Assembly: GCA_015499995.1 (NCBI GenBank)
Contig: JADNRV010000011.1
Coordinates: 434,001 to 498,000 of the forward strand
Length of the DNA stretch: 64,000 bases
DNA from: Flammula alnicola
Taxonomy: Eukaryota > Basidiomycota > Agaricomycetes > Agaricales > Strophariaceae
Direction: 5' to 3'
Part shown: positions 9,390 to 57,497 of the stretch, piece by piece
How positions within the stretch are numbered: the stretch's first letter is position 1
Layout of the letters: each line of letters begins with the position of its first letter
Position numbers and translations under genes: made by a program
The notes under the pieces: generated by a model
The model's database searches: none
Seen by the model: the letters and a program-made list of their open reading frames with translations, nothing else
Told to the model about the DNA's origin: nothing

Positions 9390-10206
9390 ATTACTAGTAG
9401 AAACCGTGAAATCGATCACTGGTGATTGTGCTTTCTTCATCTCCTCAACAAGGGCAGCATTAAGATCTGATATCTCTTTCTGCTCAGGGATAAAAACAAC
9501 GTTGATTTTTCGATGTTTATCGCTGAAGCTACTCGACTTTCTACAACGGCAATAGTCAATTTTGGAATGGAATAGGATGGGTGTGCTATGCAAAGCTACC
9601 CGTCAGCTTTGACAAGGGTACCCGGTACAGTATAACCTTCTTCCACAACTAATTCCTGGATGGTATCGTTGACCTTAAATACCTCACCTCGCCGGCCTAT
9701 AAATGCTGGTTTGGAGTGTGGTAGGTTAGCGTTATCATCGCCAGTCCATGAGACGGGTATTTGTGGTATCGTCATGCTGTTGTTTTTTCAATTTAGACTC
9801 GCGAATTTCACGTCCATCTATGTCTTGAAGACGTCGTTTTCATCTCTTTTCCTTTGAAATTGCTTTGTGACGTGCATCTCTCCACAGAGATGGGTTAATG
9901 CCATAAACATTTGATGATGATAGGGGCTGTGAGATGGCCTTGGTCGCAGAGCTGGAAGCCAATGGAGACACCATTGGCGACGTCGAGGTGCTTGGAGCCT
10001 GCGTGCTAGAATCTGGGTCTGCGCCATCAGAGTTGTGAAAGCTCTCTTTTGAAAGAGCTGATTTAAATAGCTGTTTCCAGTCGAGGTTCACTATCTTTTC
10101 ATAGATATGACCTGAGTGCAAAACCTGGTAAAGACTGCATCCGATTTAGTGAAAATACAAGAATAATCGATAATCTACGACTTACACATTTTTCAAACTC
10201 ACCCAT
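9324..10206 (-). pseudogene. Gene of unknown function, frame-broken; its 5' end is duplicated at 57.36-57.50 kb
   Basis: The start is MGEFEKC (10206-10186), an intron at 10125-10185, then VLHSGHIYEKIVNLDWKQLF and a Ser/Thr/Pro-rich stretch to about 9840. A lysine/arginine-rich part follows (RRLQDIDGREIRESKLKKQQ), then a one-base shift near 9720 into GDDNANLPHSKPAF and TIQELVVEEGYTVPGTLVKA, with a stop at 9596. A further ORF, 9593-9324, encodes NVVFIPEQKEISDLNAALVE and may be its last exon. I do not recognise the family. The first two exons up to KIVN recur on the plus strand at 57,373-57,497, where the similarity ends abruptly; that point is a breakpoint of the large inverted duplication. Confidence 0.5.
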
Positions 10207-10412
10207 GTGTGAATATGAGATATCGAGCAAGCTGGCTCGTTGGTAGCTAAGTAAAAAGCTTTCCGAAAATTTGTAAGATTTTTGATTGGATAGACAGTCA
10301 GAACAAAGAAGGACAGAACATAGAAATCGGAATCGTAGGATGGTAGATAAAAGAAATCCATGACATAAATCCCAAAGCCTCCATGGATCCAACAGCCAGC
10401 TTTTCTACACAC

Positions 10413-10608
10413 ACAATCCAGAGTGATACAGTGCCTTGGATGATACAGGCCGCTGAGCGTGGCCAAGGCGCGGCGCTCTGCATCGGCACATACTCTATTA
10501 TGGACATTGGAATGAAGCCTTTCCTAACATACAATCCAGAGTAAGAAAGTGCTTTGAATGATGTAGCGTAGCCGAGGCGCGGCGGTCTCCATCAGCATCA
10601 GCACATAC
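10413..10608 (+). repeat. Two direct copies of an ~80-bp unit between the unknown gene and trpD
   Basis: Units at about 10413-10493 and 10531-10608 share an AATCCAGAGT start, a GCGCGGCG core and a CAGCACATAC-like end. The same two-unit arrangement is present inverted in arm 2 at about 57007-57190, so the tandem repeat predates the large duplication. Confidence 0.7.
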
Positions 10609-11212
10609 ATTGGAATACAGCCATTGCAGTAGTACGGGGCGTTCTGCATGTTCCAAGCAGAAAATATAACATGGCTGGGCTGGCCGGGAATGCGAATAAA
10701 TGAAACATACATTTGAAGAACTCGGAGAATGAAAAAACCAAGTACTTAGTAGAAAGAGAAAGAAAAAAAGCTGTAATGGCACAATATATGTAAAGGTCGG
10801 AGATTCTTCTCACGCTCGAGCCAGAGTTTGACCTTGTTCTTAAATCCTGCATGAGATTTTTCATCCATACTTGAGTGAAAACACAAGACCCTCTCTCACT
10901 CTGGCAGGATAGCTCGTCCCCATCCGGCTTCGCAACACGTGATAATCATTTTAAGATCGCGTGACCGTTACAATCAAGTTGACACGTCGTTTGTTTTTCA
11001 GAATCAATGTCCTTCAAACTGACTTCCTCCTTCCTTTCTTCCTCGCCACCTCGCTCTTCCCTTGTCCCCTAGTCTCCTCAGCACACCATCATTGGCATCC
11101 CCAAACCGCCATCCACCCGTCAACCTGTGTGCCCCTCCCCTCTGAGAGGGATGTGGAGCCGGGATCGAAATTGCCGCTACCTTCGAGTTCAAGGCACGTC
11201 ACAGTGCGTTGA

Positions 11213-12060
11213 ATGATGCGCTTCACAACGTTGGAGAAAGTAACCACGAAGGAACGAGACCATACAAACCGCAAGCTCGTGCAGACCCCGGAATATTTCG
11301 GCTCCGATGATCTCAAGGAGGCGCTTAACCACTTGTTCACACCCGACGTGCTGCATATCCGTCGTAGAGAGACGACCGGATTCATTGGCAGCGGCAGCAA
11401 GCGTGCTTCGCGAGAGAGCCTTGAAAGCTGCTGTTCAACATCTCGAGGAGGATTTTGTCGTCGACATTGTCGGAACGGGTGGTGATGGATCCAACTTGTC
11501 CAATATGAGCACAACGGCCGCGATCGTAGCTGCTGGAGCAAGCGCCAGGGTAATCAAGGTATGCATTCAATTTTCCATATGTTATCTCATCATGTACTAA
11601 TCTCATTAATACCAGCATGGCAGTCGAGCATCAACATCCTCCTCGGGTTTTGCAGATCTCCTAGAGTCACTGTACTGTCTCTTCACCGCGTCTACACCAG
11701 GAACGCCTATGCCCATCCCACATATTCCCTTTACCTTCATCCTCGCACCCCATTATCACCCCGCCATGGCTTCCATTGCACCCTGCCGCGATGCTCTGCC
11801 GTTCTGCACCATGTTCAACGTTCTTGGACCCCTCATTAACCCCGCTCGTCCATGGGGCATGGTACTCGGGTTGCAGAGCCGAGATTGGGCCAACATTTGC
11901 TCTTTCCTTGAGTCAAGGAGGTGTTGAGTGTGTGTGTGGTTTTGAACGGCTCGATGAGAACGGCTGTCAATTGTGGTCTATCGATATCCCGGCCACAGCT
12001 TCAATAACTCCTCGTCTCCGCATCAGTTTATGCGATTGCAGTGCAAGGCAGTGTAACTAG
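11213..12060 (+). pseudogene. Anthranilate phosphoribosyltransferase (trpD/TRP4) pseudogene, copy 1
   Basis: Anthranilate phosphoribosyltransferase joins anthranilate to PRPP in tryptophan synthesis. Diagnostic pieces are present: TPEYFGSDDLKEALNHLFTP, VDIVGTGGDG (the PRPP-binding glycine loop), NMSTTAAIVAAGASARVIK, and after an intron at about 11560-11616 HGSRASTSSSGSADLLESL and FILAPHYHPAMASIAP. It is broken in at least three ways: a 36-base deletion at about 11356 removing 12 residues, a one-base insertion just after it (RRE to DSLAAAASVL is out of frame), and a frameshift near 11868. Similarity to the family stops after about FERLDE, so the C-terminal third of the normal protein is missing. 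Copy 2 lies at 55923-56794 and shares the insertion and the truncation point. Confidence 0.85.
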
Positions 12061-12296
12061 ATATTAATTTCAAGCCTTCGAACTCTACAGTATTTCCATT
12101 TGACAGAATAAAACCACGCAGTAGGCGCGTAGTATTGTAGGCTGGTAGCGCACATGCAATCCGTGTGGTGTGGTAGCATATGCGATCCGCGAGGCTGGCT
12201 TGCGAGGGTGGTCAGTTCTACCTGCCACCGTCTGCCGCTCCATTGAATCTCAATACTAAACATAAACTGCTCGAGCCGCCACATTGCAGGTAAAAC

Positions 12297-12550
12297 ATAT
12301 GCCACGAGGTTATCATGCTGTGAGCATGCCATTGAAGATTTAGAATGGCAGCCCGAAGCGTTTATATTTATCACGAAAGCTGTATACTATGATGCCCAGC
12401 GCTTCCGCTCTTTTGAATCTCAATAACAGGAGCTTACAGCACCGCCTGGCCCCCGATTGCAGCTATAGTTGTATATAAGCGCGATGAAACGCTTAGCGTA
12501 CAGCTTTCGTGCTAAAATTAAACGCCTCAAGGTGCAATTCTCAACGCTTC
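12297..12550. repeat. Imperfect inverted repeat upstream of TPR-CHAT gene 1
   Basis: Two arms of about 60 bp, at about 12328-12390 (minus) and 12486-12550 (plus), share ACAGCTTTCGTG and a TTTAAACGC-like block in opposite orientation, enclosing about 100 bp. Because it lies just upstream of the TPR-CHAT start it may shape transcription, or it may be a relic of a small terminal-inverted-repeat element. In arm 2 the equivalent arms are in direct orientation (55390-55670). Confidence 0.6.
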
Positions 12551-12607
12551 AAGCCGACTGGCTTACTTAAACTCATTCTTCCATTTCGACCTCGACAACA
12601 CTTAGCT

Positions 12608-15600
12608 ATGCCACATTCACCTTCCAACCAAAATCCTAATTCAATATTCCATCCATACGGAAGGCCTGCGTCTCATATCTCGGAAGCTCAGGTTTGCGTC
12701 ATGCATTTTCAGAACTAGTTCTATGTCATTTTTAACAATTTACAAGATACAGGCGTCAGGCGGCGAAAATAGCGATATAGATTCAGCTTCACAAGAGAAC
12801 TATGATGAACCTCGAGTACGTCCTTTATTACAGTTAATAGTATATACATCACGATCTAACAAAGACTAGGTAACAAACGGCAGTGCAACTGAATGTGCAA
12901 CAGAAGTCGATGAAAATTCTTTCGTAAAAGATGTATGTAAGCAACATGAAGTCCTGTCCCGTTGCAAGATCGTGATCTACATGGCAGGATCAGATCGAAG
13001 GTCATGAAGACGATGAAAACATCGATATTGCCATCTCACTCATAGCAGAATGCAAGGCACAGCTATCGCTTCCGAATCTCAACAATGTTGTCTTTCTGTT
13101 CCGTCAACTTCTCGATGACCACCCAACGACTCGCCCATTCCACACCGATGCTATGCGCGGTCTGGCCTCTGCATTGGGTGTTAGATTCATGTACACCAAT
13201 CAGATAAACGATCTAGAAGAATCCCTTATTCTTCGTGGCCAGATAATGGAGTCTTTGATAAGTGTTCAAGGTACAAGTGGAGTAAGTGCTATTGATTTTC
13301 AAAGAAAGAAATATTTGCTCACAGAAAACGCAGTCGAGTTTCGTTTTCTGTGACTGGGACAGCGTTGATGCGCACGGCCTGATGCAAATGACGAAAGGAT
13401 TTCTTGCCGATTTCCAAAAGTCGCCTGATCTTGACACTATAAACTCGATTGTTCACCTTTTACAAAGGTCCCTTGCGCGTCATCCCAACCCACATCCCAG
13501 GCGGTTCGCTGCATTGACGACTCTCGCTGATGGACTATACGCCCGGTTTCACCATTGCGACACTATGGCTGACCTGAACAATGCAATCTCTTGTCTAGAA
13601 GATGCTGCCAAATGTTGCACAGAGAGAGATTGGCAACAGTTAAACACACTCTGCCGGATTTGCTGTATGTTGGGAGCACGGTTTGACTCCATGAGGGACA
13701 TGCTCGATCTCAAAAGGGCTTTCGCCAGTTTTATAGATGCGAATCCTCAAGAGACAGAGGCGTCCGAAGGTGCCCTGGCACAGGTTGAATTCGCGAACAA
13801 GCTTCAAGACGAGTTCGGCAAATCAGGTAACATGGATGATCTAAACACTGCAGTAGCGCTTTACCGTGAGGGAATCACAGAGCTCCCTGCTAGCAGTCAT
13901 AATTATGTGGTTACTTTAAATAATCTCGCAAATGCCGTGGCGACCAGATTTGAGCAAGGAGGACAGAGAAGTGATCTCGACGAAGCCATTTCTCTCCACA
14001 GACAAGCTCTCGAGCTCCGACCTTCACCCCATCCGGATCGATCTGCCTCCCTCAACAATCTCGCAAGTGCACTAAAGACCCAATTTGAGCAAGGAGGCCA
14101 GAGAAGCGATCTTGATGAAGCAATTTCTCTCTACAGACAAGCTCTCGAGCTCCCCCCACCCCATCCCCTGCAATCTGCCTCCTTCGACAATCTCGCAAGT
14201 GCACTGTGGACCCGATTTGAGCAAGGAGGCCAGAGAAGTGATCTCGATGAAGCCATTTCCCTCCACAGACAAGCTCTCAAGCTCCGACCTTCACCCCATC
14301 GATCTGGCTCCCTCAGCAATCTCGCAAATGCACTGTTGACCCGATTTCAGCAAGGAGGACAGAGAAGTGATCTCGATGAAGCTGTTTCTCTCTACAGACA
14401 AGCTCTCGAGCTCCGACCTTCACCCCATCCAGATCGATCTGCCTCCCTCAACAATCTCGCAAGTGCACTAAAGACCCGATTTGAGCAAGGAGGCCAGAGA
14501 GGTGATCTCGATGAAGCCATTTCCCTCTACAGACAAGCTCTCGAGCTCCTCCCTTCACCCCATCCCCTGCGATCTGCCTCCCTCAACAATCTCGCAAATG
14601 CACTAGAGACCCGATTTGAGCACGGAGGCCAGAGAAGGGATGATGTCGATGAAGCCATTTCTCTCTACAGACAAGCTCTCGAGCTCCGACCTTCACCCCA
14701 TCCCCGTCGATATGGCTCCCTCAGCAACCTCGCAAATGCACTAAAGACCCGATTTGAGCAAGGAGGCCAGAGAAGTGATCTCGACGAAGCCATTTCTCTC
14801 CACAGACAAGCTCTCGAGCTCCGACCTTCACCCCATCCGTTGCGATCTAGTGTCCTCAACAATCTCGCAAGTGCACTGTGGACCCGATTTGAGCAAGGAG
14901 GCCAGAGAAGTGACGTCGATGAAGCCATTTCTCTCTACAGACAAGCTCTCGAGCTCCGACCTTCATCCCATCCGCTGCGATCTGGCATCCTCAACAATCT
15001 CGCAAGTGCACTGTGGACCCGATTTGAGCAAGGAGGACAGAGACGTGATCTCGACGAAGCCATTTCTCTCCACAGACAAGCTCTCAAGCTCCTCCCTTCA
15101 CCTCATCCGGATCGATCTGCCTCCCTCAACAACCTCGCAAATGCACTAAAGACCCGATTTGAGCAAGGAGGCCAGAGAAATGATCTTGATGAAGCCATTC
15201 CTCTTCACAGACAAGCCCTCGAGCTCCGACCTTCACCCCATCCAGATCGATCTGCCTCCCTCAACAATCTCGCAAGTGCACTAAAGACCCAATTTGAGCA
15301 AGGAGGCGAGAGAAGTGATCTCGATGAAGTCATTTCTCTCCACAGACAAGCTCTTGAGCTCCGACCTTCACCCCATCCGGATCGATCCACCTCCTTCGCC
15401 GCCTTAGGGGACATCCTTGTTGACGCTCACTCCTTGACTGATAGAAATTCAGATTTTTTGGAGCAAGCCATGTGTTCATTCTCCGCTGCTACGCAATGTC
15501 TATCTCAACCGCCATCTAGACGTCTCAACATTGCAAAATCGTGGATACGTCATGCAGATAACCACCAGCATATTCATGCAATTGACGCTTACGACGCTGC

Positions 15601-17296
15601 CTTGCAGGCTTTACCCCAATTAGCTGCTCTTAGCTTCAGTTTACAATCACGCCAGGAAGCGTTGAGCGCCGGCAGCGATGGTTTAGCGCGGGATGCATCA
15701 AGATGCGCTATTCGAGCTGGAGATTTGGTCAAGGCAGTAGAGTTTCTCGAAGCAGGACGAAGCATTTTCTGGTCACAGTCCCTATCACTCCGCTCTCCTT
15801 TCGACCAACTCCGCGATATCGAACCGCAACTCGCAGATAAGCTACGACATATTGCAGATGCACTCGAGCTTGGCTCCCATCGCGACATTTCGGCCGATAT
15901 TTCAGATAATCGGAGGAAATTATCCCGAGATCAAGAAGCGTCCCGACTGAATCGCCTTAACGAAGAATGGGCGAACGGTATCGATGAAGTCAGAAAATTG
16001 AAGGGATTTGAGGATTTTCTACGCCCCCGCCGTTTTTCGGAGTTACAACGTGCTGCCTCAGAGTACCCTGTGGTCATTCTAGTGGCGAACAATGATGGTA
16101 GCCACTGCCTGATCTTGACATCAACTACCATTCAGCACATCGATCTCCCAAGGTTACCCACTCGCAGGTTGCAGGACCTCGTCCGGCTCGTACAAGTCGC
16201 TGTCTCAGAATCGACAGTCTCATTCTCTTCCGTTGAAAGGGTTATGGAAGATCTAGCTGTTCTTCTGGGGGAAAACCGCGCAGTGGAGCGTATGGTTCAT
16301 AAACTGGGATCCTCGGATGATGTTTTCAAACGTGTTTTGAGAATTCTGTGGAACGAAGTGGTAAAGCCTGTTGTCGATTTCCTCAAAATCGAGGTGAGTT
16401 GTGTCATCCGCGGTGAAGCATCAACCTACTCACACGATCGTAGAAATCCTGTTCAGGAGAACTGCCCATGTTGCAATGGTGCCCAACTGGACCCTTCACT
16501 TTTCTTCCGATCCATGCAGCTGGTTGCTACGATATCGAGTTATCCGGCGAATGTGCTTCCGATTACTTCGTCTCTTCCTATATACCAACCATAGGCGCGT
16601 TGCTTACCCACGATCCTGCTCCGTCAACCGAAACATTCAAGATGACGGTCGTCATTCAATCCACAGAGCTCCCTTCTACGAAAACTGAACTAAAAAACAT
16701 TGAAAAGCACGTATCCAGCGGCATGCTTAACAAATTGGGAGTTCCTGGCAAACCTGCTACGATTGAAGCAGTTGCTTCTTGTCTTTCGAATGCTTCCATA
16801 GTTCACTTCGCATGCCATGGGAAGCAAGACCGATTAAGACCACTTGATAGCGGACTCAAACTTGATGATGGGTTACTCCGAGTCTCGAGAATTATGCAGG
16901 AGACAATGCCAAATGGATCACTAGCCTTCCTCTGCGCTTGTGAGACGGGGAAGGGTGACGAAAACCTACCGGATGAGGCGATGAGCTTAGGTGCAAGCTT
17001 GCTCTTCTCTGGATTCCGTCGGGTTATTGCAACTATGTGGTAAGTTTGTTTTATGGCGTCGCTTTCTGGAACATAATTTCTGATACGATTATCATATCAG
17101 GGAAATGAGGGACGCAGACGGACCCACCATTGCAGATACCTTTTACGAAGAACTTTTCCGAGGTCCGGATGGAAAACCTGCTCTGGAGCCTGACATCACG
17201 AAGTCTGCTCGAGCCCTTTACCTTGCGGTCAATAAATTGCGTTCCCAGAATGTTTCTTTCCGCCGTTGGGTTCCCTTCATTCACATGGGCAAGTGA
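12608..17296 (+). CDS. TPR-CHAT protein 1 (tetratricopeptide repeats plus caspase-like CHAT protease)
   Basis: Exons 12608-12691, 12753-12815, 12870-12932, 12994-13281, 13334-16393, 16444-17039 and 17101-17296 give 1450 codons (1449 aa) with consistent phases. Residues 1-80 are an acidic, disordered leader (GRPASHISEAQ, then many E/D). Residues 90-350 are helical with TPR-like spacing. About 358-853 is an array of 11 near-identical TPR units of 43-46 residues built on LNNLANALKTRFEQGG and DLDEAISLHRQALELRPSPH. Helical repeats continue to about 1180, then a CHAT domain with VHFACHG (His about 1311) and FLCACETG (Cys about 1352), the expected catalytic pair. CHAT proteases are clan CD relatives of caspases and separase; TPR-CHAT proteins are expanded in Agaricomycetes and occur in bacterial defence. 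The substrate is unknown. The frame is intact and a close paralogue lies at 50592-55307. Confidence 0.92.
13912..15390 (+). repeat. Coding minisatellite: 11 TPR units of ~132 nt in TPR-CHAT gene 1
   Basis: Eleven tandem units, mostly 132-135 nt with one of 138, differ by only a few bases each and repeat blocks such as GAGCAAGGAGGCCAGAGAAG. Unit lengths stay multiples of three. Lengths vary at the PSPHP linker: one unit has lost two codons and another has gained one. Near-identity between units and divergence from flanking TPR-like helices point to recent amplification and homogenisation. Confidence 0.9.
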
Positions 17297-17422
17297 GATG
17301 GGTGTTGGTCCTTGTCACGACGTCAGACACGTTAGCGTTTAAGAAGCTTGAGGATATACTTCGTATATAAATATGGTTTACATACTTTTAATCCATATAT
17401 CAGAATAGTTTTCTCCAATCCC

Positions 17423-18017
17423 ACCTACATGTTATGGAGTAAGTCGCGGAAATGGGACTACGGGCAGCTGAGACAACTAGTGGGAATCGTGACTTCTGTA
17501 GGGTAGGACCTGGTAGGTCTAACCTAGCTTTTCATCAAAATGCTTCTGGTCGGAAACCAAACTAAGGGAAGAGTCATTTAGTTATGATAAACTGAACAGT
17601 TTCAAGGAAGGTGGTGGTCATCGAAGGCACCGTGGCTCTGCATCATCACAGTTATGGTACATAAGCTCGGAGCAAGCCCCTTCGGCAAAAAGGCAGCCTT
17701 TTTTGCGGCGCGGTTACAATTTCTGTCAAAATCTGCACCGGCACCACTCTAAAGGCAGAGTATTTTCATTGTATGTGACAGTTGAGCTTGAGCAAGCCGT
17801 AGAGAAAGGTGAATTTTCATCATATATGACATGAGAACTTGGGAAAGACGCAGAGGAATTAAGCGAGGTGTAGCCAGTAGCCTGGAGTGTTGTAGTTAAA
17901 CTTAAAAAGATGGTGATAGAGTACGGTCAGAAGGAAAGGAATGTGATTGGGACTGTGGGACACTATGTACAGCATTAGTCGGCCATTTTTGAAGGAAATT
18001 TAGCGAGACACTAGCCT
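17423..18017. other. Non-coding stretch downstream of TPR-CHAT gene 1
   Basis: I see no gene. It lies between the end of duplication arm 1 and repeat R1 copy 2. A TTTTCAT...TGTATGTGACA-like motif recurs at about 17763 and 17815, too short to interpret. Confidence 0.4.
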
Positions 18018-45899: not shown

Positions 45900-46015
45900 T
45901 TAATCCTTCCATACTTGGGGATAGGATGTTAGTAAAATGTTCATTCTGGTGTTCAGCAAGACCGTTATCTTGGAGTCCGAGGATGCTTTCCCGAGACCAC
46001 GAAGCTGGGCTGGCA
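45900..46015 (-). pseudogene. Third DUF6534 fragment (3' end only)
   Basis: The minus strand reads LGKASSDSKITVLLNTRMNI, which lines up with LGKAYSNSMMIALNSRMKVF of copies A and B, the conserved end of the last membrane helix. No other part of the gene is recognisable. It suggests that a further copy once lay upstream of copy B. The overlapping 163-codon plus-strand ORF (45536-46027) is probably spurious. Confidence 0.5.
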
Positions 46016-46342
46016 ATCTGGGGATGACGGGGAAGTAGCGACAGTAGAAACGACTACAAAAGAGGAACATGATTGTGAGACCGGAAGGAGGCGAAATTTT
46101 GGCCAGAGGATCTCAACTGTTCATAATTCCGGCATAATTGAATAGTGGCCATTGAGTCTTATGGCAGAGAAAGAAAGCAAATTTAATGCGCGGAGAACAG
46201 GCCTGCCGCTTGTTAATATTATCGCCTTTCGAGAGGAGGATGCCGAGGCGGCAGTTTGCCGTGCGCAAATAAGTGTCAACATTGCACTGCCGTTCACGAA
46301 CATTCTAAAGCTCAACGCCGTATACCTCGATCAAACAACGAA

Positions 46343-47915
46343 ATGTCCTCGGCCTCCCCTGATCATCCCAAACCGTCCAAAAGAAAGTGGGACCAACCTG
46401 CGCCAGGCGAAGAAGCGGCCGCTCCCACCAAGGTAGCAAAAACCGATGAGGGAAAGTCCGCGTCAGAGGCAGCAGCAGCGGCAGCGGCTATTGCTGCGAA
46501 AATCGCCGCGCAATTCGCCAATGGGAGTCTTGGTGGTGACGGACTGAAGGACCAACACGATGCGGAGTTTACCCATGATATTGACATCAACGATGTGCGG
46601 AATCGATATCTTCTGACGAGAGGGTCAACACAAGACCAGGTTCGTGTGTTCTGTTTCTGATTCACGAGAAAGTCTTGACGGAGCTGGTGCCAACGATATT
46701 TGTGGTTTAGATTCATGAAGAAACTGGCGCATCTGTTGGGACGAGGGGTGTGTGGTACCCAGACCGTTCGAAGGCCACAGAGAAGGACCCTCCTCTGTAT
46801 ATCCATATCTCAGCGCAAACGAAGGAAATGCTGGATAAGGCTGTCGCCAAAGTTAACGAACTTATTGCTCTGGATATGGGGTCATTGGTGGAAAAAGGTG
46901 ACAGGACAAGGGAGCGTGTAAGCATGAATTTATTTATCTTTTCAGCGCCCTATCTTAACTCCTTATTTAGCGGAAATGGCCAGAAGAGAAACTGCCAGTG
47001 GGATTGGAATCGCTACGAAACTTTAACATCAGGGCGAAAGTCGTTGGTCCAACGGTACAATTGAACTCGAGATGAATTCTCTGTTCAAATTCTGACTTTT
47101 GGTTCAGGGATCATTCGTTAAGTATATCCAGGCAGAAACGAGCACAAGGGTGCAAATAAAAGGCATCGGATCTGGTTTTATTGACCAAGAGGTGTGTAGT
47201 ATTCTTTTTTCTTTCTTAGTCTGTTAATGCTTATATCCTCTAGACCGGCCAAGAAGAACCCGTCCCGCTGTATATCCATATTACGTTCGTCTTGCCAAAT
47301 TTCACTTGTTGTCAGCGTCTGACACGTCTCTTCTTCCCAGTGGACCAGACGAAGGACAAGTCGCAAGAGCGAAAGTACTAACAGAAGACCTCCTGCTCGT
47401 TGTTCGCCAAGAACATGCAAAAGCGCTAACCCTCGTCCAACAACAACAGATGGAACTTCATCAGGCTCAGGCTCAGTATGCAGCTTACAGTGCCATGGGA
47501 GTGCGTATTACGTGCCATTATCATCTAATCCTTTCTTAATCATCCTTGATAGAGCTACGCTCCACCTCCTCCATCCGCACCCGCTCCGCCACCCCCTCCT
47601 GGAGAAGGTCCGCCACCACCACCTTCAGGTACACCTGCTGGAGATGCTGCTGCACAGTATGCCGCGGCTGGTCCGCCAGCTCCCTCAGATACAGAAGCAT
47701 ATGCCGCCTATTGGTGAGTTGAGAGCGGCTCCGTGTAATAATAGCTCACTAATTGTCTCGACAGGGCTGCATATGGTTACGACGTGAATTCACCCGAGTT
47801 CAAAGAATGGCAAGCGAGTCAGCAACAACAATACGCCCAGTACTACGCTGCGTACGCTGCGAGCAGTGGTGCTGCCCAACCCTCCGATGCGCCCCCACCG
47901 CCTCCACCATCATGA
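46343..47915 (+). CDS. KH-domain RNA-binding protein (KHDC4/BLOM7-like)
   Basis: Eight exons, 46343-46639, 46711-46917, 46971-47054, 47108-47191, 47244-47284, 47341-47500, 47553-47713 and 47765-47915, give 394 aa with consistent phases. Residues 40-65 are an alanine-rich helix. NDVRNRYLLTRGSTQDQIHE, TGASVGTRGVWYPD and DPPLYIHISAQTKEMLDKAV form a first KH-like unit. ESLRNFNIRAKVVGPTGSFV, KYIQAETSTRVQIKGIGSGF and EEPVPLYIHI form the second, more canonical KH fold with a GxxG-like GPTGSF loop. The C-terminus is proline-rich with Tyr/Ala/Gln repeats (YAQYYAAYAASS). KHDC4 family proteins bind RNA, associate with the spliceosome and affect splice-site choice. The frame is clean, unlike several neighbours. 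Confidence 0.88.
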
Positions 47916-48491
47916 TTGTTGCGATTGTACTTTTATGCGACAGGCGTTTTGCCCAGGTTTACTTTGTGGAGCGGATTGCAGCAGGTTTGGATGATGTATT
48001 GAGAAGTTGGGATTTCGCGGATGGCAGCGGCAAAGCTCAAATTTTTCGTTGTCGATCTTCGGCGAAGTGTTTTATGAGGAATGCTCTAATATATAATCGT
48101 GTATCGTGTCCTTTTTCGTGACTCATGATGGCCATTTCTCATTGGCATGAGTTGGCACTGAGCGTTGACCGCTCTTCCTCATTGGGCTAAAGTCACCCAG
48201 ACGACGATAGACAACCCTCTGTGATCGACCACTACATACCATTAAACTACCCAAGGCGTAGCTTGAATACAGACTTCCACAGCAATGTTCGCCTGGTGTT
48301 CGCTTCGACGCCCAAGAAAGGCTTGAATGTACAACCCACATGGGGGACGGAGAGCCCGGTATATCTCGACGTTGTCCTTGTTTACTACACCAGTGCAAAC
48401 TTGAACTTCAATACTTTCCTCGTCGTTCTGGCTGCAGGAAGAAGTCCAACTTCAAGCTCTTCAAGCTTCAGGTTCGGACACGTCGATCCGG

Positions 48492-50150
48492 ATGGAGTTC
48501 CTTGCAGTCGCGCAGTGGGCTGGCCTTATCCTCGCTCCGTTCATCCTCCTGGTGCTTTATATTCGCCGAAACGATAGGCCCCTCACCTCTATCCCTGCAA
48601 GTGCTCTCTACTTCGCACCGAAGCGATGTACTGCACAGGATGTGCACGCGATGGCTGAGAGGCTAGCCAATTCGCCCCCTCTGTCGAAAAATGAGAAATT
48701 ACCCCCGAAGACGGGTCGACGGTACATTGTGGTCGGTGGCGTGCGTCTTGTTTATTTTTCTCTTGCTTGTGATTCGCATTAATCTGGTTTACAGGGAGGT
48801 TTTCTCGGAGGTTGGATCGTGACAAAGCTACTAGAACGGGGAGAAGAATTCCACCGCATCCGTCTGCTCGATCTGACTCCACCCTCGAACCACGTCGCAA
48901 AAGACGCACTATCCAAAGGCGCGCAGTTTATTAAAGTCGACGTGACGGATGCCCAAGCTCTGCATGAAGCATTCAACGCACCCTGGACCACGCCTTCGAA
49001 CTCACCAAGAAAACAGCCCGAACCTGAAATCACCGTATTTCACACCGCCGCGAATATCCGGTTCTACGAGCGACATCAGGAGTTTTTGGATCGATCGACG
49101 AGGGTGAATGTGGCTGGGACGCAGAACGTCATCGACGCATCGCGAGCAGTCGGCGCTACCGTGCTGATATACACGTCTTCCGGCTCGGTTGGCGTACACA
49201 GTACTCGATTCCTTCTGTGGCCTTGGGAGGAGGAGCCAAAACAGTTCGTGCAGGTCATAAACGACGATGACAGCCGCCTGCCCAAGCGACATGAGGATTT
49301 CTTCTCGAACTACGCCGCGACGAAGATCGAAGCCGAGAGGCTCGTACGTGCCGCTGATCGAGCGACGACTGGTGCGCAGGGGAAGGACCTACTGAGGACC
49401 GGCTGTATCCGGCCTGGCAATGGTGTCTTTGGGCCCCGAGGAGACATGCTGTGCGGTGCATATTTGGTACGCAAGACCAACCCTACCTGGATCTCGTCCG
49501 TCGTGCAGTCCTTCTCATACGTGGAGAACTGCGCCGCCGCGCATCTGTGCTACGAGGCGCGCTTGATTGACCTCCTTGAGGGAAGCACCAATCCTGACAT
49601 CGGCGGACAAGCTTTCTGCATCGCGGACCCTGGGCCGACGCCTACATACGGAGACGTGTATACCACGCTCGAAACACTCACGGAAGGAGAGTGCCATTTC
49701 CCTGTCTTCTCGCCTACGGCTATGCTCCTCCTATCACATGTGATAGAGAGATATTACCGCACACACCATGCGCTGCTTGCCGCCGGCTGGAAATTCGTCA
49801 AGTTCCTCCCAGCAGTGACAGGCGACATTATCAACCTCCAGCCGTCCCTCTTCTCGCTGACGTCGGTCCACCTCATCTTCGACGACTCGCGGGCGCGCCT
49901 GCCACCGGAGAAAGGAGGCTTGGGGTATTCAGGTGTATGGACGACACTCGAGGGCCTGCACAAAACGTTCGAGGAGCACAAGAGCGGTATTGGACGGTCA
50001 GAGACGAGGTCGGACACGGCCGGCGTCAGTTTCTCGTTCGGGTTCAAGTTTAGGAAGGCAGAGAAGGGGAAGGGTGTCAGGAAGGCAGCCGACAAAGTCA
50101 ATGATACTATGCCTGGCGTAGCCCCTGTAGAGATGCTGCCGGCAGCATGA
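48492..50150 (+). CDS. Extended SDR / 3-beta-HSD family dehydrogenase, ERG26-like
   Basis: Two exons, 48492-48740 and 48795-50150, encode 534 aa. The N-terminus carries a membrane anchor (WAGLILAPFILLVLYI) and a basic RRND stop. A Rossmann fold follows, with YIVVGGGGFLGGW (the glycine-rich NAD(P) loop, cut by the intron), VFHTAANI, IYTSSGSVGV, and NYAATK as the catalytic YxxxK. CIRPGNGVFGPRGD and SFSYVENCAAAHL are typical of 3-beta-hydroxysteroid dehydrogenase/isomerase proteins. In fungi the closest role is sterol-4-alpha-carboxylate 3-dehydrogenase (Erg26) in ergosterol synthesis at the ER. The N-terminal anchor and ~530-aa length exceed yeast Erg26 (349 aa), so it may be a paralogue acting on another sterol or isoprenoid. 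The C-terminal tail is basic and low-complexity. Confidence 0.82.
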
Positions 50151-50591
50151 TCGGACGACGATGCAACTCAGAGCAACTGCTCTATAGTGTTTTCAATGCT
50201 TATACCGATCACTGACTACTACGAGGGGATAGATGGTTTGATTTATTAAAATTTATTCTTCGAGCTCAAATGTAACAAAGGAATAGTATAGACCGACCAA
50301 GATATGATTATCGCTACTCCTACTCAAGATTGTTAAATTACTTGAACTAATGAAGAAATTTCTCGGTGTCGGTGTGTCGTGCGCGCTCCTTTGACTGCAT
50401 CATACTTTTTGTAACTGTATCTAATGCAGTTATTCGGCATTTTGAAGTGCCTCATTGGATGTAGAGGGATTGGAGAAAACTATTCTGATGTATGGATTAC
50501 AAGTAGGTAAGCCATATCTACATACGAAGTGCATCCTCAAGCTTCTTAAACGCTAACGTGTCTGACGTCGTGACAAGGACCAACGCCCATC

Positions 50592-53500
50592 TCACTTGCC
50601 CATGTGAATAAAGGGAACCCAACGGCGGAAAGAAACGTCAGGTTGGGAACGCAATTTCTTGACCGCAAGGTAAAGGGCTCGAGCAGACTTCGTGACGTCA
50701 GGCTCCAGAGCAGGTTTTCCATCCGGACCTTGGAAAAGTTCTTCGTAAAAGGTATCTGCAATGGTGGGTCCGTCTGCGTCCACCATTTCCCTGATATGAT
50801 AATCATATCAGAAATTATGTTCCAGGAAGCGACGCCATAAAACAAACTTACCACATAGTTGCAACAACGCGACGGAATCCAGAGAAGAGCAAGCTTGCAC
50901 CTAAGCTCATTGCCTCATCCGGTAGGTTTTCGTCACCCATTCCCGTCTCACAAGCGCAGAGGAAGGCTAGTGATCCATTTGGCATTGTCTCCTGCATAAT
51001 TCTCGAGACTCGGAGTAACCCATCCTCAAGTTTGAGTCCGCTATCAAGCGGTCTTAATCGGTCTTGCGTCCCATGACATGCGAAGTGAACTATGGAAGCA
51101 TTCGAAAGACAAGAGGCGACTGCTTCAATCGTAGCCGGTTTGCCAGGAACTCCCAATTTGTTAAGCATGTCGCTGGATACGTGCTTTTCAATGTTTTTTA
51201 GTTCAGTTTTCGTGCAAGACAGCTCTGTGGATTGAATGACGACGGTCATCTTGAATGTTTCGGTTGACGGAGCAGGATCGGGGGTAAGCAACGCGCCTAT
51301 GGTCGGTATGTAGGAAGAGATGAAGTAATCGGAAGCACATTCGCTGGATAACTCGATGTCGTAGCAACCAGCTGCATGGATAGGAAGAGAAGTGAAGGCC
51401 CCAGTTGGGCACCATTGCAACACGGGCTGTTCTCCTGAACAGGATTTCTACAATCGTGTGAGTAAGTTGATGCTTCACCGCTGATGACACCACTCACCTC
51501 AATTTTGAGGAAAGTGATAACAGGCTTTACCACTTCGTTCCACAGAATTCTCAAAACATGTTTGAAAACATCATCCGACGATCCCAGTTTATGAACCATA
51601 CGGTGTGCTTTGCGATTTTCTCCCAGAAGAGCAGCTAGATCTTCCATAACCCTTTCAATGGAAGAGAGTGAGACTGTCGATCCTGAAACAGCGACTTGCA
51701 CGAGCCGGACGAGGTCCTGCAACCTGCGAGTGGGTAACTTTGGGAGATCGATGTGCTGAATGGTAGTTGATGTCAAGATCAGGCAGTGGCTACCATCATC
51801 GTTCGCCACTAGAATGACCACAGGGTACTCTGAGGCAGCACTTTGTAGCGCTGAAAAACGGCGGGGTCGTAGAAAATCCTCAAATCCCTTCAATTTTCTG
51901 ACTTCATCGATACCGTTCGCCCATTGTTCGTTAAGGCGATTCAGTCGGGACGCTTCTTCATCTAGGGATAATTTCCTCCGATTATCTGAAATATCGGCCG
52001 AAATGTCGCGATGGGAGCCAAGCTCGAGTGCATCTGCAATATGTCGTAGCTTCTCTGCGAGTTGCGGTTCGATATCGTAGAGTTGGTCGAAAGGAGAGCG
52101 GAGTGATAGGGACTGTGACCAGAAAATGCTTCGTCCTGCTTCGAGAAACTCGATTGCCTTGACTAAATCTCCAGTTCGAATAGCGCATCTTGACGCATCC
52201 CGCGCTAAACCATCGCTGCCGGCGCTCAACGCTTCCTGGCGTGATTGTAAATTGAAGCTAAGAGCAGCCAATTGGGGCAATGCCTGCAATGCAGCCTCGT
52301 AAGCGTCAATTGCACGAATATGCTGGTGGTTATCTGCGTGATGTATCCACGATTTTGCAATGAGGAGACCTCTAGATGGCGATTGAGATAGACATTGCAT
52401 AGCAGCAGAGAATGAATCCATGGCTTGCTCCAAAAAATCTGAGTTTCTGTTAGTTGAGTGAGCACGAATAAGGTTGTTCCCTAAGGCAGCGAAGGAGGCA
52501 GATCGATCCGGATGGGCTGAAGGTCGGAGCTCGAGAGCTTGTCTGTGGAGAGAAATGGCTTCATCGAGATCGCTTCTCTGGCCTCCTTGCTCAAATCGGG
52601 TCGACAGTGCATTTGCGAGATTGTTGAGGGAGGTAGATTGAAGGGGATGGGGTGAAGGTCGGAGCTCGAGAGCTTGTCTGTGGAGAGAAATGGCTTGATC
52701 AAGATCACTTCCCTGGCCTCCTTGCTGAAATCGGGTCGACAGTGCAGTTGCGAGATTGTTGAGGCAGGCAGATCTATCCGGATGGGGTGAAGGTCGGAGC
52801 TCGAGAGCTTGTCTGTGGAGAGAAATGGCTTCATCGAGATCGCTTCTCTGGCCTCCTTGCTCAAATCGGGTCGACAGTGCATTTGCGAGATTGTTGAGGG
52901 AGGTAGATTGAAGGGGATGGGGTGAAGGTCGGAGCTCGAGAGCTTGTCTGTGGAGAGAAATGGCTTGATCAAGATCACTTCCCTGGCCTCCTTGCTCAAA
53001 TCGGGTCATCAGTGCTTTTGCGAGATTGTTGAGGGAGGTAGATCGAAGGGGATGGGGCGAAGGTCGGAGCTCGAGAGCTTGTCTGTGGAGAGAAATGGCT
53101 TCATCGAGATCACTTCGCTGGCCTCCTTGCTCAAATCGGGTCGACAGTGCAGTTGCGAGATTGTTGAGGGAGGAAGATCGAAGCAGATGGGGTGAAGGTC
53201 GGAGTTCGAGAGCTTGTCTGTGGAGAGAAATGGCTTCATCGAGATTACTTCTCTGGCCTCCTTGCTCAAATTGGATCGACAGTGCATTTGCGAGATTGTT
53301 GAGGGAGGCAGATCGATCTGGATGGGGTGAAGGGAGGAGCTTGAGAGCTTGTCTGTAGAGTGAAATGGCTTCATCGAGATCACTTCTCTGGCCTCCTTGC
53401 TCAAATCGGGTCGACAGTGCAGTTGCGAGATTGTTGAGGGAGGAAGATCGAAGAGGATGGGGTGAAGGGAGGAGCTCGAGAGCTTGTCTGTGGAGAGAAA

Positions 53501-55307
53501 TGGCTTCCTCGAGATCACTTCTCTGGCCGCCTTGCTCAAATCGGGTCGACAGTGTACCTGCAAGATTGTTGAGGGAGGTAGATCGACCCGGATGGGGTGA
53601 AGAGAGGAGCTTGAGAGCTTGTCTGTGGAGAGAAATGGCTTCATCGAGATCACTTCTCTGGCCTCCTTGCTCAAATCGGGTCTTCAGTGCATTTGCGAGA
53701 TTGTTGAGGGAGCCAGATCGATCTGGATGGGGTGAAGGTCGGAGCTCGAGAGCTTGTCTGTAGAGAGAAATGGCTTCATTGAGATCACTTCTAGGCTGGC
53801 CGCCTTGCTCAAATCGGGTCGACAATGCATTTGCGAGATTATTGAGGGAGCCAGATCGATCTGGATGGGGTGAAGGTCGGAGCTCGAGAGCTTGTCTGTA
53901 GAGTGAAATGGCTTCATCGAGATCACTTCTCTGGCCGCCTTGCTCAAATCGGGTCGACAGTGCAGTTGCGAGATTATTTAAAGCAGCGACATAATTCTGA
54001 CTGCTACCAGGGAGCTCTGTGATTCCCTCACGGAAAAGCGCTACTGCAGTGTTTAGATCATCCATGTTACCTGACTTGCTGAACTCATCTTGAAGCTTGT
54101 TTGCGAACTCAAGCAGTGCCAGGGCCCCTTCGGCCGCCTCCGTCTCTTCAGGATTTGCATCTAGAAAACTGGTGAAAGCCCTTTCGAGATCGAGCATGTC
54201 CCCCATGGAGTCAAACCGTGCTGCTAACATGCAGCAAATCCGGCGGAGTGTGTCTAACTGTTGCCAATTTCTCTCTGCGCAACATTTGGCAGCATCTTCT
54301 AGACAAGAGATTGCATCGTTCAGGTCAGCCATGGTGTCGCAATGGTGAAACCGTGCATATAGTCCATCAGCGAGAGTCGTCAATGCAGCGAACCGCCTGG
54401 AATGTGGGTTACGATGACGCGCAAGGGGTCTTTGTAGAAGGCGAACAATCGAGTTTATCATGTCAAGATCAGTCGACTTTTGGAAATCGGCAAGAAATCC
54501 TTTCGTCGTTTGGATCAGGTCGTGCGTATCAACGCTGTCTGAGTCGCAGAAAACGAAACTCGACTGCATCTTTTGTGAGCAAATATTTCTTTCTTTGACA
54601 ATCAGTAGCACTTACTCCACTTGTACCTTGAACGCTTGTCAAAGACTCCATTATCTTGCCACGAAGAGCAAGGGATTCTTCTAGATCGTCTATCTGATTG
54701 GTGTACATGAATCTAACACCCAATGCAGAGGCAAGACCGCGCATAGCATCGGTGTGGAGTGGGCGAGTCGTTGGATGGTCATCGAGAAGTTGACGGAACA
54801 GAAAGACAACATTGTTGAGATTCGGAAGCGAGAGCTGTGCCTTGCATTCTGCCATGAGTGAGATGGCAACATCGATGCTTTCATCGTCTTCATGACCTTC
54901 GATCTGATCTTGCCATGTAAAGTCACGATCTTGTGATGGGAGATGACTTCATGTTGCTTACATCTTCACCGAAAGTATTTTCATCGGCTTCTGCTGTATA
55001 TTCAGCCGGACTGCTGTTTGTTACCTAGTCTTTGTTAGATCGTGATGTATATACTATTAACTGTATTAAAGGACGTACTCGAGGTTCACCACAATTCTGT
55101 TGCGCAGCTGAATCCATATCGCTGCTTTTGCCGCCTGACGCCTGTATCTTGTAAATTGTTAAAAAGACATAGAACTAGTTCTAAAAAGTGCATGGCGCAA
55201 ACCTGAGCTTCCGAGATATGAGACGCAGGCCTTCCGTATGGATGGAGTATTGAATTATGCTTTCGGTTGGGAGGTGTGTCAGGATAGGGTGATTTTGAGG
55301 GTGGCAT
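50592..55307 (-). CDS. TPR-CHAT protein 2 (tetratricopeptide repeats plus caspase-like CHAT protease)
   Basis: Exons 55307-55203, 55141-55079, 55024-54962, 54903-54616, 54563-51498, 51447-50852 and 50790-50592 give 1460 codons (1459 aa), all phases matching. Domain order is as in copy 1: disordered acidic leader, helical N-terminal repeats, 11 near-identical TPR units, further helices, then a CHAT domain keeping VHFACHG and FLCACETG. The leader is seven residues longer than in copy 1, and the C-terminus has SQPDVSFRRW where copy 1 has SQNVSFRRW. Two AGs usable as splice acceptors in copy 1 are mutated here (near 54909 and 54573), but in-frame AGs 6 and 9 bases downstream, present in both copies, keep the gene open. 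Intact reading over 4.7 kb beside a dead trpD suggests the TPR-CHAT frame is under selection. Confidence 0.92.
52495..53985 (-). repeat. Coding minisatellite: 11 TPR units in TPR-CHAT gene 2
   Basis: Eleven units of mostly 135 nt. Units 8-9 and 10-11 look like a duplicated pair, sharing the rare GQGSDLDQAISL and PHPLQST variants followed by the common form. Most units here have ALSTRFEQGG where copy 1 has ALKTRFEQGG or ALWTRFEQGG, so each array is more alike internally than to its partner array. Confidence 0.9.
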
Positions 55308-55389
55308 AGCTAAGTGTTATCGACGTCGAGTATGACTTGTCAATCGAAGAATGAGTTAGAGCAAGCCACTAGGCTTGAAGGTTATATAT

Positions 55390-55670
55390 AAGGACGCTTA
55401 ACGCACAGCTTTCGTAAAATTAAACGTTAAACGCTTCGAGGTGCAATTCTCAACCCCCAACAGGATGCACACAGCGTGTTAGCCTCATGGAGTCCACAAT
55501 ATACACTATAGCTGCAATCGGGCGCCGGGCGGTGCTGCAAGCTCCTGTTATTGGGATTCAAAAGGGCGATGAAGCGCTGAGCATACAGCTTTCGCGATAA
55601 AGGTAAACGCTTCGAGCTGCCATTCTAAATCTTCAACGGCATGTTCACAGCATGGTAACCTCGTGGCATA
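55390..55670 (+). repeat. Direct repeat pair upstream of TPR-CHAT gene 2
   Basis: Two plus-strand copies of about 90 bp, at about 55393-55490 and 55575-55670, share ACAGCTTTCG, AAACGCTTCGAG and CACAGC blocks. They correspond to the arms of the inverted repeat at 12297-12550, but here the gene-proximal arm is flipped, so the pair is direct. Confidence 0.65.
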
Positions 55671-55922
55671 TGCTTTACTTGCAACGTGGCGGCTCTAGCA
55701 GTTTATGTTTAGTATTGGAGCGGCAGACGGTGGCAGGTAGAACTGACCATCCTCGCAAGCCAGCCTCGCGATTCGCATATGCTACCACACCATGCGGATT
55801 GCATATACGCTACCAGCCTACCATACTACGTGCCTACTGCGTGGTTTTCTTCTGTCAAATGGAAATGCTGTAGAGTTCGAAGGCTTGAAATTAAAATCTG
55901 CTTACACTGCCTCGCGCTGCGG

Positions 55923-56794
55923 TCACATACACTGATACAGAGACAAGGAGGTATTGAAGCTGTGGTCGAGACATCGATAGACCACAATTGACAGCTGATC
56001 CCATGGAGCCGTTCGAAGCCACACACGACCAGCACGCTCGACGCCTCCTTCGCTCAGGGAATGAGCGAATGTTGGCCCAATCTCGGGCTCTGCAACACCG
56101 AGTACCATGCCCCATGGACGAGCGGGGTTAATGAGGGGTCCGAAAACGTTGAACATGGTGCGGAACGGCAGAGCTTTGCGGCAGGGTGCGAGGGAAGCCA
56201 TGGCGGGGTGATAATGGGGTGCGAGGATGAAAGTCAAGGGAATATGCGGGATGGGCGTAGGTGTTCCTGGTGTAGACGCGGTGAAAAGACAATCCAGTGA
56301 TTCTAGGAGATCTGCAGAACCCGAGCAGGATGTCGACGCTCGACTGCCATGCTGGTATTAATGAGATTAGTACACGGTGAGATAATATATGGAAAATTGA
56401 ATGCATACCTTGATTACCCTCGCGCTCGCTCCAGAAGCTACGATTGCAGCCGTTGTGCTCACATTGGACAAGTTCGATCCATCATCACCCGTCCGACAAT
56501 ATCGACGACAAAATCCTCCTCGAGATGTTGAACAGCAGCTTTCAAGGCTCTCTCGCGAAGCACGCTTGCTGCCGCTGCCAATGAATCCAGTCGTCTCTCT
56601 ACGATGGATATGCAGCGCCGTCAGGAATGCTCCGATCTGTGCAGGATGCAGTACGTCGGGTGTGAACAAGTGGCTAAGCGCCTCCTTGAGATTGTCGGGG
56701 CCGAAATATTCCGGGGTCTGCACGAGCTTGCAGTTTGTACGGTCTTGTTCCTTCATGGTTCCTTTCTCCCGAGTTCCAACGCTGTGAAGCGCAT
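55923..56794 (-). pseudogene. Anthranilate phosphoribosyltransferase (trpD/TRP4) pseudogene, copy 2
   Basis: Counterpart of 11213-12060. It keeps TPEYFGPDNLKEALSHLFTP and the PAQIGAFLTALHIHRRE segment that copy 1 has lost, FILAPHYHPAMASLAP and VLGVAEPEIGPTFAHSLSEG. It shares the one-base insertion after HIHRRE with copy 1. It then has its own one-base deletion just before the PRPP loop, which restores the frame after about 45 wrong residues, and the loop reads TGDDG instead of TGGDG. The end is truncated at the same place as copy 1. The intron between ARVIK and HGSRA is retained. No functional enzyme is expected. Confidence 0.85.
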
Positions 56795-57372
56795 CATTCG
56801 GCGCACTGTGACGTGGGACTGGTGTCTTGAACTCGAAGGTAGCGGCGATTTCGATCCCGGCTCCACATCCCTCTCAGAGGGGAGGGGCACACAGGTTGAC
56901 GGGTGAATGGCGGTTTGGGGGTGCTAGTGATGGTGTGCTGAGGAGATGAGGGGACAAGGGAAGAGCGAGGCGGCGAGGGAGAAGTATTCCAACGTATATG
57001 ATAGAGTATGTGCTGATGGAGACCGCCGCGCCTCGGCTACGCTACATCGTTCAAAGCACTTTCTTACTCTGGATTGTATGTTAGGAAAGGCCTCATTCCA
57101 CTGTCCATAATAGAGTATATGCTGATGCAGAGCGCTGAGACTCGGCCACGCTGTATCATCCAAGGCACTGTATCACTCTGGATTGTGTGTTTAGAAAAGC
57201 TGGCTGTTGGAGGCTTTGGGATTTAAGTCGTGGATTTCTTTTATCTACCATCCTACGATCCTGATTTCTACGTTCTGTCCCTCTTTGTCCATCCAAAAAT
57301 CTTACAAAATTTCGGACAGCTTTTTACTTAGCTATTGACGAGCCAGCTTGCTTGATATATCATATTCAAACA

Positions 57373-57497
57373 TGGATGAGTTTGAAAAACGTGTAAGTCG
57401 TGGATTATTCTTGTATTTTCACTAAATCGGATACAATGTCTTTACCAGGTTTTGCGCTCGGGTCATAAATATGAAAAGATAGTGAACCCCTCTTATA
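57373..57497 (+). pseudogene. 5' fragment of the unknown gene at the duplication breakpoint
   Basis: Reads MDEFEKR, an intron, then VLRSGHKYEKIVNP, matching MGEFEKC and VLHSGHIYEKIVNL at 10084-10206. The frame then runs on without a stop through unrelated sequence (KKNKKGAEPVHMSVWHYFQL and onward) to a stop at about 57756, so a chimeric transcript is possible. Confidence 0.7.

Follow-up and report, generated by a model that had tools for sequence, protein, structure and literature searches.

Two open TPR-CHAT genes in an inverted duplication of Flammula alnicola, with a repeat array replaced between alleles

What might two open TPR-CHAT genes, lying in opposite arms of one duplicated segment, be doing in the genome of an agaric? 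The window, a stretch of 64,000 nucleotides of Flammula alnicola (contig JADNRV010000011.1, positions 434,001 to 498,000), holds a segmental inverted duplication with two apparently live members of an Agaricomycete family of putative receptor-proteases. To our knowledge, few of the receptors and executioner proteases of non-self recognition in mushrooms are known, and this locus is a candidate in which a sensor and a caspase-like effector would be joined in one protein. Among open-licence papers, we found none that deals with this locus or with arrays being exchanged in TPR-CHAT genes.

The inverted duplication

Self-BLAST bore out the inverted duplication proposed in a preliminary description of this DNA, giving two inverted copies with 86-91% identity.

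10085..17430, plus strand: arm A of the inverted duplication (self-BLAST; C13 is its sole contig)
50459..57488, minus strand: arm B of the inverted duplication (self-BLAST; allele and both flanks in contig C389)

The main self-BLAST blocks (E from 0 to 1e-109), all inverted, pair 12618-17430 with 55276-50459 (91.3%), 11350-12476 with 56616-55499 (89.3%), 11036-11356 with 56983-56646 (88.5%) and 10085-10597 with 57488-57011 (86.4%). By part, the arms are 88.7% identical in the repeat array, 94.6% in the linker, 95.0% in the CHAT exons and introns and 92.3% in a trpD fragment; their longest exact match is 88 bases.

The assembly includes unmerged haplotype contigs. Contig C389 holds arm B with both junctions in unchanged orientation, and looks from its sequence like the other haplotype's allele of arm B and both flanks; since it reproduces all three, arm B is not an artefact. 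For arm A and its flanks (~2.2-26.1 kb), searches gave no long match of at least 92% outside C13 (in one of them, 8 of 9 candidates were scored and the own locus was absent from the list), so that arm A is supported by a single contig. C530 is uninformative on arm A, because its match ends at window position 26152, the start of a multi-copy repeat whose end is constant; a telomere at the end of C530 was considered, and the doubled telomere hexamer is absent. A flip of the segment between the arms, suggested as possible in the preliminary description, was not seen: at arm B, C389 has the same inner junction as the window (one junction in one further haplotype), with no inversion allele there, and the arms share no exact match longer than 88 bases. 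Inspection by eye ruled out a mobile unit whose copies end at the same inner point, as A and C534 remain homologous beyond the place where the homology of B ends.

Pieces of two other genes accompany the arms.

11272..11959, minus: trpD fragment, arm A (sign is the reverse of the orientation of locus L043, not the coding strand)
55992..56730, plus: trpD fragment, arm B (sign is the same orientation as locus L043, not the coding strand)
9398..10895, minus: unknown gene, front part (resembles C8; the stretch 10085-10597 is found again in arm B, at 57488-57011)

The trpD Pfam match stops at position 130 (A) or 144 (B) of 253, and C379:206729-207545 gives an uninterrupted match. Relative to the C379 gene, one breakpoint is common to all four copies (A, B, C389 and C534), which indicates that a fragment was copied rather than that a gene died twice. 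The trpD copies are indeed dead in both arms, as first described, but because of this common origin they make a weak contrast from which to argue for selection on the TPR-CHAT genes. On C8, a longer stretch has a front part similar to the unknown gene; the idea that this gene encodes a TET/JBP-like dioxygenase found no support from Pfam or PDB sequences.

Two open genes with a TPR array and a CHAT domain

Gene models reproduced both protein lengths of the preliminary description, 1449 (A) and 1459 (B) residues, with six GT-AG introns in each gene.

12608..17296, plus: TPR-CHAT gene A, 1449 aa, seven exons (gene model; equal to public protein P0001 except for two residues)
Exons of gene A: 12608-12691, 12753-12815, 12870-12932, 12994-13281, 13334-16393, 16444-17039, 17101-17296
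50592..55307, minus: TPR-CHAT gene B, 1459 aa, seven exons (gene model)
Exons of gene B: 55307-55203, 55141-55079, 55024-54962, 54903-54616, 54563-51498, 51447-50852, 50790-50592
13942..15394, plus: repeat array of gene A (11 TPR units, each 43-46 residues long; period 135 bases)
52494..53975, minus: repeat array of gene B (11 TPR units; those of the C389 allele number 7 and are different)
16444..17296, plus: CHAT exons of gene A, most of the domain (both the His and the Cys motif retained; the domain match starts one exon earlier)
50592..51447, minus: CHAT exons of gene B, most of the domain (His and Cys motifs kept)

Public protein P0001 is the product of arm A, annotated at 1451 aa with the two extra residues at one splice junction. 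The spliced frames are open in A, B and C389; the copy on C534 lacks the N-terminal exons, yet is open from the array through the stop. Each predicted protein starts with an N-terminal part, followed by near-identical 45-residue TPR units wound into a superhelix and by a linker of helices; a CHAT peptidase of caspase/separase-like type forms the C-terminus.

Units of 45 residues occur in A, B, C389 and C534, and array A includes others of 43, 44 and 46 residues, a spread that could reflect looser constraint. Mean pairwise unit identity is 0.85 in P0001 and 0.81 in P0006 (7 matched units each). For the repeats of fungal NLRs, the part of PMC4986451 consulted defines high identity as >85% over at least 100 residues; we judged near-identity by mean pairwise unit identity instead of by that method, and on this measure the arrays classify by sequence as high-identity tandem repeats.

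The Pfam CHAT profile (PF12770) scored 84.8 bits in P0001 and 62.3 bits in the main exon of gene B, against a cut-off of 24. The motifs HFACHG and CACETG are present in A, B and C389, and in an alignment of 40 relatives the Cys column shows no variation and the His column is at least 90% conserved; we take these His and Cys residues to be catalytic. By profile and motifs, genes A and B are members of the CHAT peptidase family, with proteolysis itself predicted. The family is large, with 35 CHAT matches in this unmerged assembly. NACHT and NB-ARC were absent among the Pfam matches at E 0.001 of P0001 (24 families) and P0006 (14 families), and PADLOC gave no match on P0001.

Replacement of the array between alleles

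The B and C389 alleles are 98.8-100% identical on either side of the array and 87.6-93.5% identical within it. The arrays differ in unit count (11 in B, 7 in C389), and their closest full-length units differ at 9 of 135 bases. As no near-identical unit is common to both, simple reshuffling of one array was ruled out. Colinear unit order was found in none of five array pairs. Just 3' of the C389 array lies a tract that matches its own allele B (217/246) less well than the paralogue C534 (236/249), and the next 600 bases return to B (594/600). Within B, units 8 and 10 are one base apart, which marks them, from sequence, as a recent internal duplication.

An array unlike between alleles within a nearly identical gene is the pattern expected, at the sequence level, of a fast-evolving self/non-self receptor. 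We regard this comparison of alleles, which lay outside the preliminary description, as more telling than the evidence given there. The evidence for array replacement comes from one allele pair, B and C389. Two other pairs, C557/C701 (100% over 3807 bases) and C403/C612 (99.97% over 3722 bases), are uninformative on this point, and one paralogue whose repeats have diverged shows no array replacement. Outside the array, too, the divergence between the alleles rises abruptly, at 47.5-50.7 kb and 56.25-57.5 kb, so that the array is not alone in forming a divergent block.

Constraint outside the array and variable positions within it

Selection on both TPR-CHAT genes, another proposal of the preliminary description, found support when dN/dS was computed between A and B: 0.47 before the array (bootstrap 0.29-0.82) and 0.43 after it (0.28-0.67), both intervals lying below 1. 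The CHAT part gave 0.31 (a point value without interval). Values near 0.45 are compatible with partial relaxation too.

Within the units, variation peaks at positions 33, 40 and 43, both here and among 42 related proteins. In these relatives with high-identity repeats, position 33 ranks among the five most variable positions in 35 of 42, position 40 in 27 and position 43 in 24. Replacement and silent changes number 39:4 at the three positions and 87:60 elsewhere (Fisher p 8e-5, positions grouped after seeing the data); the same post hoc grouping gave a binomial p of 0.023. Silent changes per site are similar, 1.99 at 33/40/43 versus 1.77 in the other 38 codons. In single-position tests of positive selection, where recombination among units violates the assumed tree, only position 33 was significant (p 0.029, uncorrected). 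By TPR numbering, positions 33, 40 and 43 would lie on the groove face.

A proposed mechanism and its alternatives

Our best explanation, which we hold to be slightly more likely than not, is that the locus encodes a receptor-protease without a nucleotide-binding domain, equipped with a diversifying sensor and segmentally duplicated in inverted copies. The groove of the TPR superhelix would bind a non-self or altered-self ligand, and binding would free the CHAT protease; this would cut a protein of the host, possibly, going by precedents in fungi, a pore-forming one such as a gasdermin, and cleavage would lead to local cell death or rejection. The array would be swapped as a block from a diverged source, either another locus or an old allele, conferring a new specificity. 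Specificity would thus be renewed both by block replacement and by diversifying pressure at three groove positions per unit, with the N-terminal part, linker and protease held constant.

The alternative that weighs most, although we think it unlikely, is that the arrays at arm B are old balanced alleles, which diverged long ago at the same locus under balancing selection while nearby recombination homogenised the flanks, no array having come from elsewhere. The lack of near-identical units common to B and C389 fits this history, as do the narrow footprints described for heterokaryon incompatibility genes, a CHAT gene included, in the part of the Aspergillus fumigatus study consulted (PMC11138114); the C534-like tract after the C389 array does not, although only two alleles are compared. 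We regard as improbable a neutral turnover, in which unequal crossing-over and slippage would reshape an ordinary duplicated TPR gene with no selection for diversity. Tandem arrays in general change fast, the near-identity of B units 8 and 10 shows such change here, and position 33 alone is singly significant. Internal reshuffling, however, predicts shared units when the flanks are 99-100% identical, and none were seen; moreover, replacement changes concentrate at three positions where silent changes per site do not, and the same positions vary in related proteins.

A role in normal cell biology, in which a separase-like enzyme would use its TPR array to bind a changing set of endogenous partners and would have no part in non-self recognition, seems to us more improbable still: among compact structural matches, separase comes closest to the protease domain, but array replacement between alleles and the expanded family fit a housekeeping enzyme poorly. 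As for an assembly artefact, in which the arms would be misjoined haplotypes or collapsed copies, we give it very little credence. The unmerged haplotype contigs and the single contig for arm A would suit it, but C389 reproduces arm B with its flanks, and the arms are ~9% apart, against 0-0.4% between the arm-B alleles along most of their length, the array excepted.

The natural allele pair, with a gene differing almost only in its putative sensor, lends itself directly to testing whether specificity is set by TPR arrays. A wider proposal, which we advance tentatively as something short of likely, is that agarics use, for immunity or allorecognition, a repertoire of TPR-caspases that lack a nucleotide-binding switch. 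Whole sensor arrays would move between loci as cassettes, a single receptor-protease would change specificity in one step with its protease fixed, and within one mycelium the two nuclei would carry different sensors at the same locus.

Relation to known systems

Among fungal NLRs, the WD arrays of Podospora het-d/het-e and the TPR and ANK arrays of NACHT or NB-ARC proteins are treated in the parts of PMC1805685 and PMC4986451 consulted, which report three variable positions on the concave side of the TPR repeats. The arrays studied here have in common with those high-identity repeats, as far as these parts describe them, near-identical units, unit numbers varying between alleles, unit exchange and variation focused on what would, by TPR numbering, be the binding face. 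They differ in that the array adjoins a C-terminal protease, with no NACHT or NB-ARC found, and in that two alleles within a single basidiomycete assembly show replacement of the whole array. The exchange of arrays and the variation on the binding face that are known in fungal NLRs would in this way extend to a protease without a nucleotide-binding switch.

At hetB, a heterokaryon incompatibility locus of Aspergillus fumigatus, the same portion of PMC11138114 places a CHAT protein with divergence confined to a narrow region, a likeness that our locus bears in sequence. The hetB alternatives are described there as idiomorphs without protein similarity, whereas here each of the two alleles is a complete TPR-CHAT gene, the difference lying in the array. 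In Podospora, a TPR-bearing CHAT protease activates gasdermin, according to part of PMC12881547, and TPR and CHAT are likewise united in a single protein here. No gasdermin was detected nearby, in Pfam scans of selected window frames, or elsewhere in this genome, where profile PF04598 had no match; as this profile matched nothing in 14 control genomes either, its negative result is uninformative.

Against Craspase TPR-CHAT (Csx29, type III-E CRISPR), the domains agree and their arrangement differs, with an rmsd of ~18 Å over the whole match. The CHAT model superposes on separase at 3.3-3.6 Å over 309-319 residues, with ~16% identity. Separase is a conserved cell-cycle gene, whereas the TPR-CHAT family here is expanded and polymorphic.

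Inverted duplication and its gene content

The window is C13:434001-498000 in an assembly of 74.4 Mb in 861 contigs, from what we take to be Flammula alnicola, a mushroom of the Agaricales. The inverted duplication proved real, its two arms, A and B, aligning in self-BLAST at 86-91% identity with a longest exact match of 88 bases, and the preliminary description of it was confirmed. Going inward from its outer end, each arm contains part of an unknown gene, then a trpD fragment, then a TPR-CHAT gene reading toward the centre. The arm-A gene model equals the public Flammula alnicola CHAT protein P0001 except at two residues.

Features, in window positions:
10085-17430 (+), arm A
50459-57488 (-), arm B
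13942-15394, TPR array of gene A
52494-53975, TPR array of gene B
6118-7752 (+), NLR-like frame with NPHP3_N/NACHT matches, just outside arm A
26284-27596 / 43880-45181, second inverted pair (82%), just inside the arms, probable membrane-protein frames
42390-42884 / 58198-58700, third inverted pair (78%), frames presumably of F-box type

A further copy of the membrane-protein-like frame is close to the TPR-CHAT paralogue on contig C534, in opposite relative orientation. These frames matched no Pfam family above cut-off, and the F-box-like frames had no Pfam match at 0.001.

Replacement of the TPR array between two alleles

Contig C389 of the same assembly is colinear with window positions 43537-63291, in the same orientation, and spans arm B with both flanks. 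Outside the array its identity to the window varies patchily, from 91 to 100% per 250 bases, with a few indels, and it was therefore taken as the other haplotype. Along gene B, identity of the two alleles in 250-base bins is 99.6-100% on the linker and protease side (50.75-52.0 kb), 97.6% at 52.0-52.25 kb, 87.6-93.5% across the array and the tract that follows it (52.25-54.0 kb), and again 98.8-100% on the N-terminal side and upstream (54.0-56.25 kb). The B array has 11 units and that of C389 has 7, C389 being shorter by about 540 bases in this comparison. The most similar full-length units of the two arrays have 9 differences in 135 bases; this comparison used 30 of the 38 units, leaving out each array's last unit and any unit of a length other than 45 codons. 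For the complete set of 38, the minimum distance is 0.059. Colinear unit order exceeded shuffles in none of five array pairs (best diagonal at any offset, equalled by 140 to 491 of 500 shuffles).

Because the flanks are so alike, internal reshuffling is ruled out as the sole cause of the array difference, which calls for a diverged source. The tract immediately following the C389 array matches the paralogue C534 at 236 of 249 bases versus 217 of 246 for its own allele B, and the 600 bases that follow match B at 594. As this tract is nearer to C534 than to its own allele, the comparison of these two alleles tends to favour exchange between loci, rather than an old allele, as a possible source of the C389 array. 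Beyond the preliminary description, we observed that two alleles in a single assembly differ by replacement of the sensor array, and that three positions of the repeat concentrate the variation.

Contigs C168 and C221 (loci L051 and L052) carry a TPR-CHAT paralogue with about 70% DNA identity to the A and B genes and look like alleles. The units of this paralogue are diverged from one another, and the two contigs agree across its array (98.8% over 2013 gap-free bases), so that, judging from this one pair, not every TPR-CHAT gene of this genome undergoes array replacement. Just past the 2013-base stretch, C221 carries about 1.8 kb of inserted sequence. A Flammula alnicola NACHT protein, P0058, also has 45-residue TPR units of the kind described here; such arrays are thus found on NACHT as well as CHAT proteins.

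Variable positions of the repeat unit

The most variable of the 45 unit positions are 33, 40 and 43 (entropy 2.42, 2.21 and 2.09 bits, versus a mean of 0.51), with 0.54/0.07, 0.37/0.16 and 0.45/0.18 replacement/silent differences per site, respectively. From alignment to the canonical TPR, we take them to be its positions 2, 9 and 12, on helix A and presumably facing the groove. The canonical groove set (2, 5, 9, 12 and 13) exceeds random sets in mean entropy (p 0.0003), although 5 and 13 vary little.

Parsimony on a FastTree unit tree, whose tree assumption is violated by recombination among units, counted 39 replacement changes against 4 silent ones at 33, 40 and 43, grouped after the data were seen (binomial p 0.023), versus 87 and 60 elsewhere in the units (Fisher p 8e-5 for this post hoc group). 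Tested singly, only position 33 reached p<0.05 (0.029, uncorrected). Silent changes per site are similar at the three positions (1.99) and in the 38 codons that remain once the seven most variable are set aside (1.77), so these positions do not resemble mutation hot spots. Among 120 listed relatives (including P0001 and P0006 of the same genome and the NACHT-TPR protein P0058), 59 have at least 6 matched units, and 42 of these reach a mean identity between units of 0.70 or more. The five most variable positions include 33 in 35 of these 42 proteins, 40 in 27, 43 in 24 and 24 in 23.

Possible mechanism and precedents

In known systems, high-identity arrays of fungal NLRs diversify by unit exchange and selection on the binding face (PMC4986451, PMC1805685), incompatibility at the Aspergillus fumigatus locus hetB is due to a CHAT gene (PMC11138114), and a TPR-bearing CHAT protease activates a gasdermin in Podospora (PMC12881547); PMC10197012 is cited as a further precedent. 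By analogy, the simplest reading of the TPR-CHAT protein would be a one-chain receptor-protease of sensor array, linker and protease, in which the array would sense a putative ligand and, through a putative switch, the CHAT protease would act on a putative substrate. The gasdermin profile PF04598 had no match in this genome, but as it matched nothing in control genomes either, this negative carries no information.

Constraint on the TPR-CHAT genes

The preliminary interpretation was partly right: the proposed selection on both TPR-CHAT genes held, and the proposed flip between the arms was not seen at arm B of the second haplotype. The comparison of A with B gives a dN/dS of 0.47 before the array (95% bootstrap 0.29-0.82), 0.43 after it (0.28-0.67) and 0.31 for the CHAT domain alone (a point value), supporting constraint on both genes; values near 0.45 fit partial relaxation too. 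After the array, dN/dS against C534 is 0.40 for B, 0.44 for A and 0.49 for C389, and against C389 it is 0.55 for A (0.37-0.88) and 0.24 for B (0.11-0.43). In the part preceding the array, 2 replacement and 0 silent changes separate B from C389. Units 2, 3 and 6 of gene A (within 13942-15394) have 44, 43 and 46 residues, off the 45-residue period, possibly reflecting looser constraint in arm A.

The contrast between dead trpD and open TPR-CHAT frames, earlier offered as an argument for selection, is weak. Relative to the C379 gene (uninterrupted match at C379:206729-207545), the trpD fragments of all four copies (A, B, C389, C534) break at one common point, positions 2540/2541 of locus L043, which indicates that trpD was copied as a fragment.

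Orientation and haplotype structure

As C389 runs through arm B and its flanks, both arm-B junctions were assembled twice and the second haplotype is unflipped there. In several searches, one of which scored 8 of 9 candidates from a list without the own locus, the arm-A region (about 2.2-26.1 kb) had no long match of at least 92% outside its contig, C13; in the other haplotype, arm A may be absent, hemizygous or collapsed.

Outside the array, too, divergence from C389 rises abruptly in blocks at 47.5-50.7 and 56.25-57.5 kb, from close to 0% to 3-9% in 250-base bins; this patchwork suggests that diverged haplotypes recombined in the past. Contig C530 aligns, with gaps, as an allele of 26152-35021 and enters a multi-copy repeat at 26152. 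This repeat (C530:10385-24040) starts at a sharp end, 'CACTGTGGGG...', common to 15 other contigs within a few bases and several times at a contig start; it resembles a young transposable element that is polymorphic between the haplotypes. Window positions 1-2213 are 99.95% identical to C591:18695-20907, where contig C591 ends.
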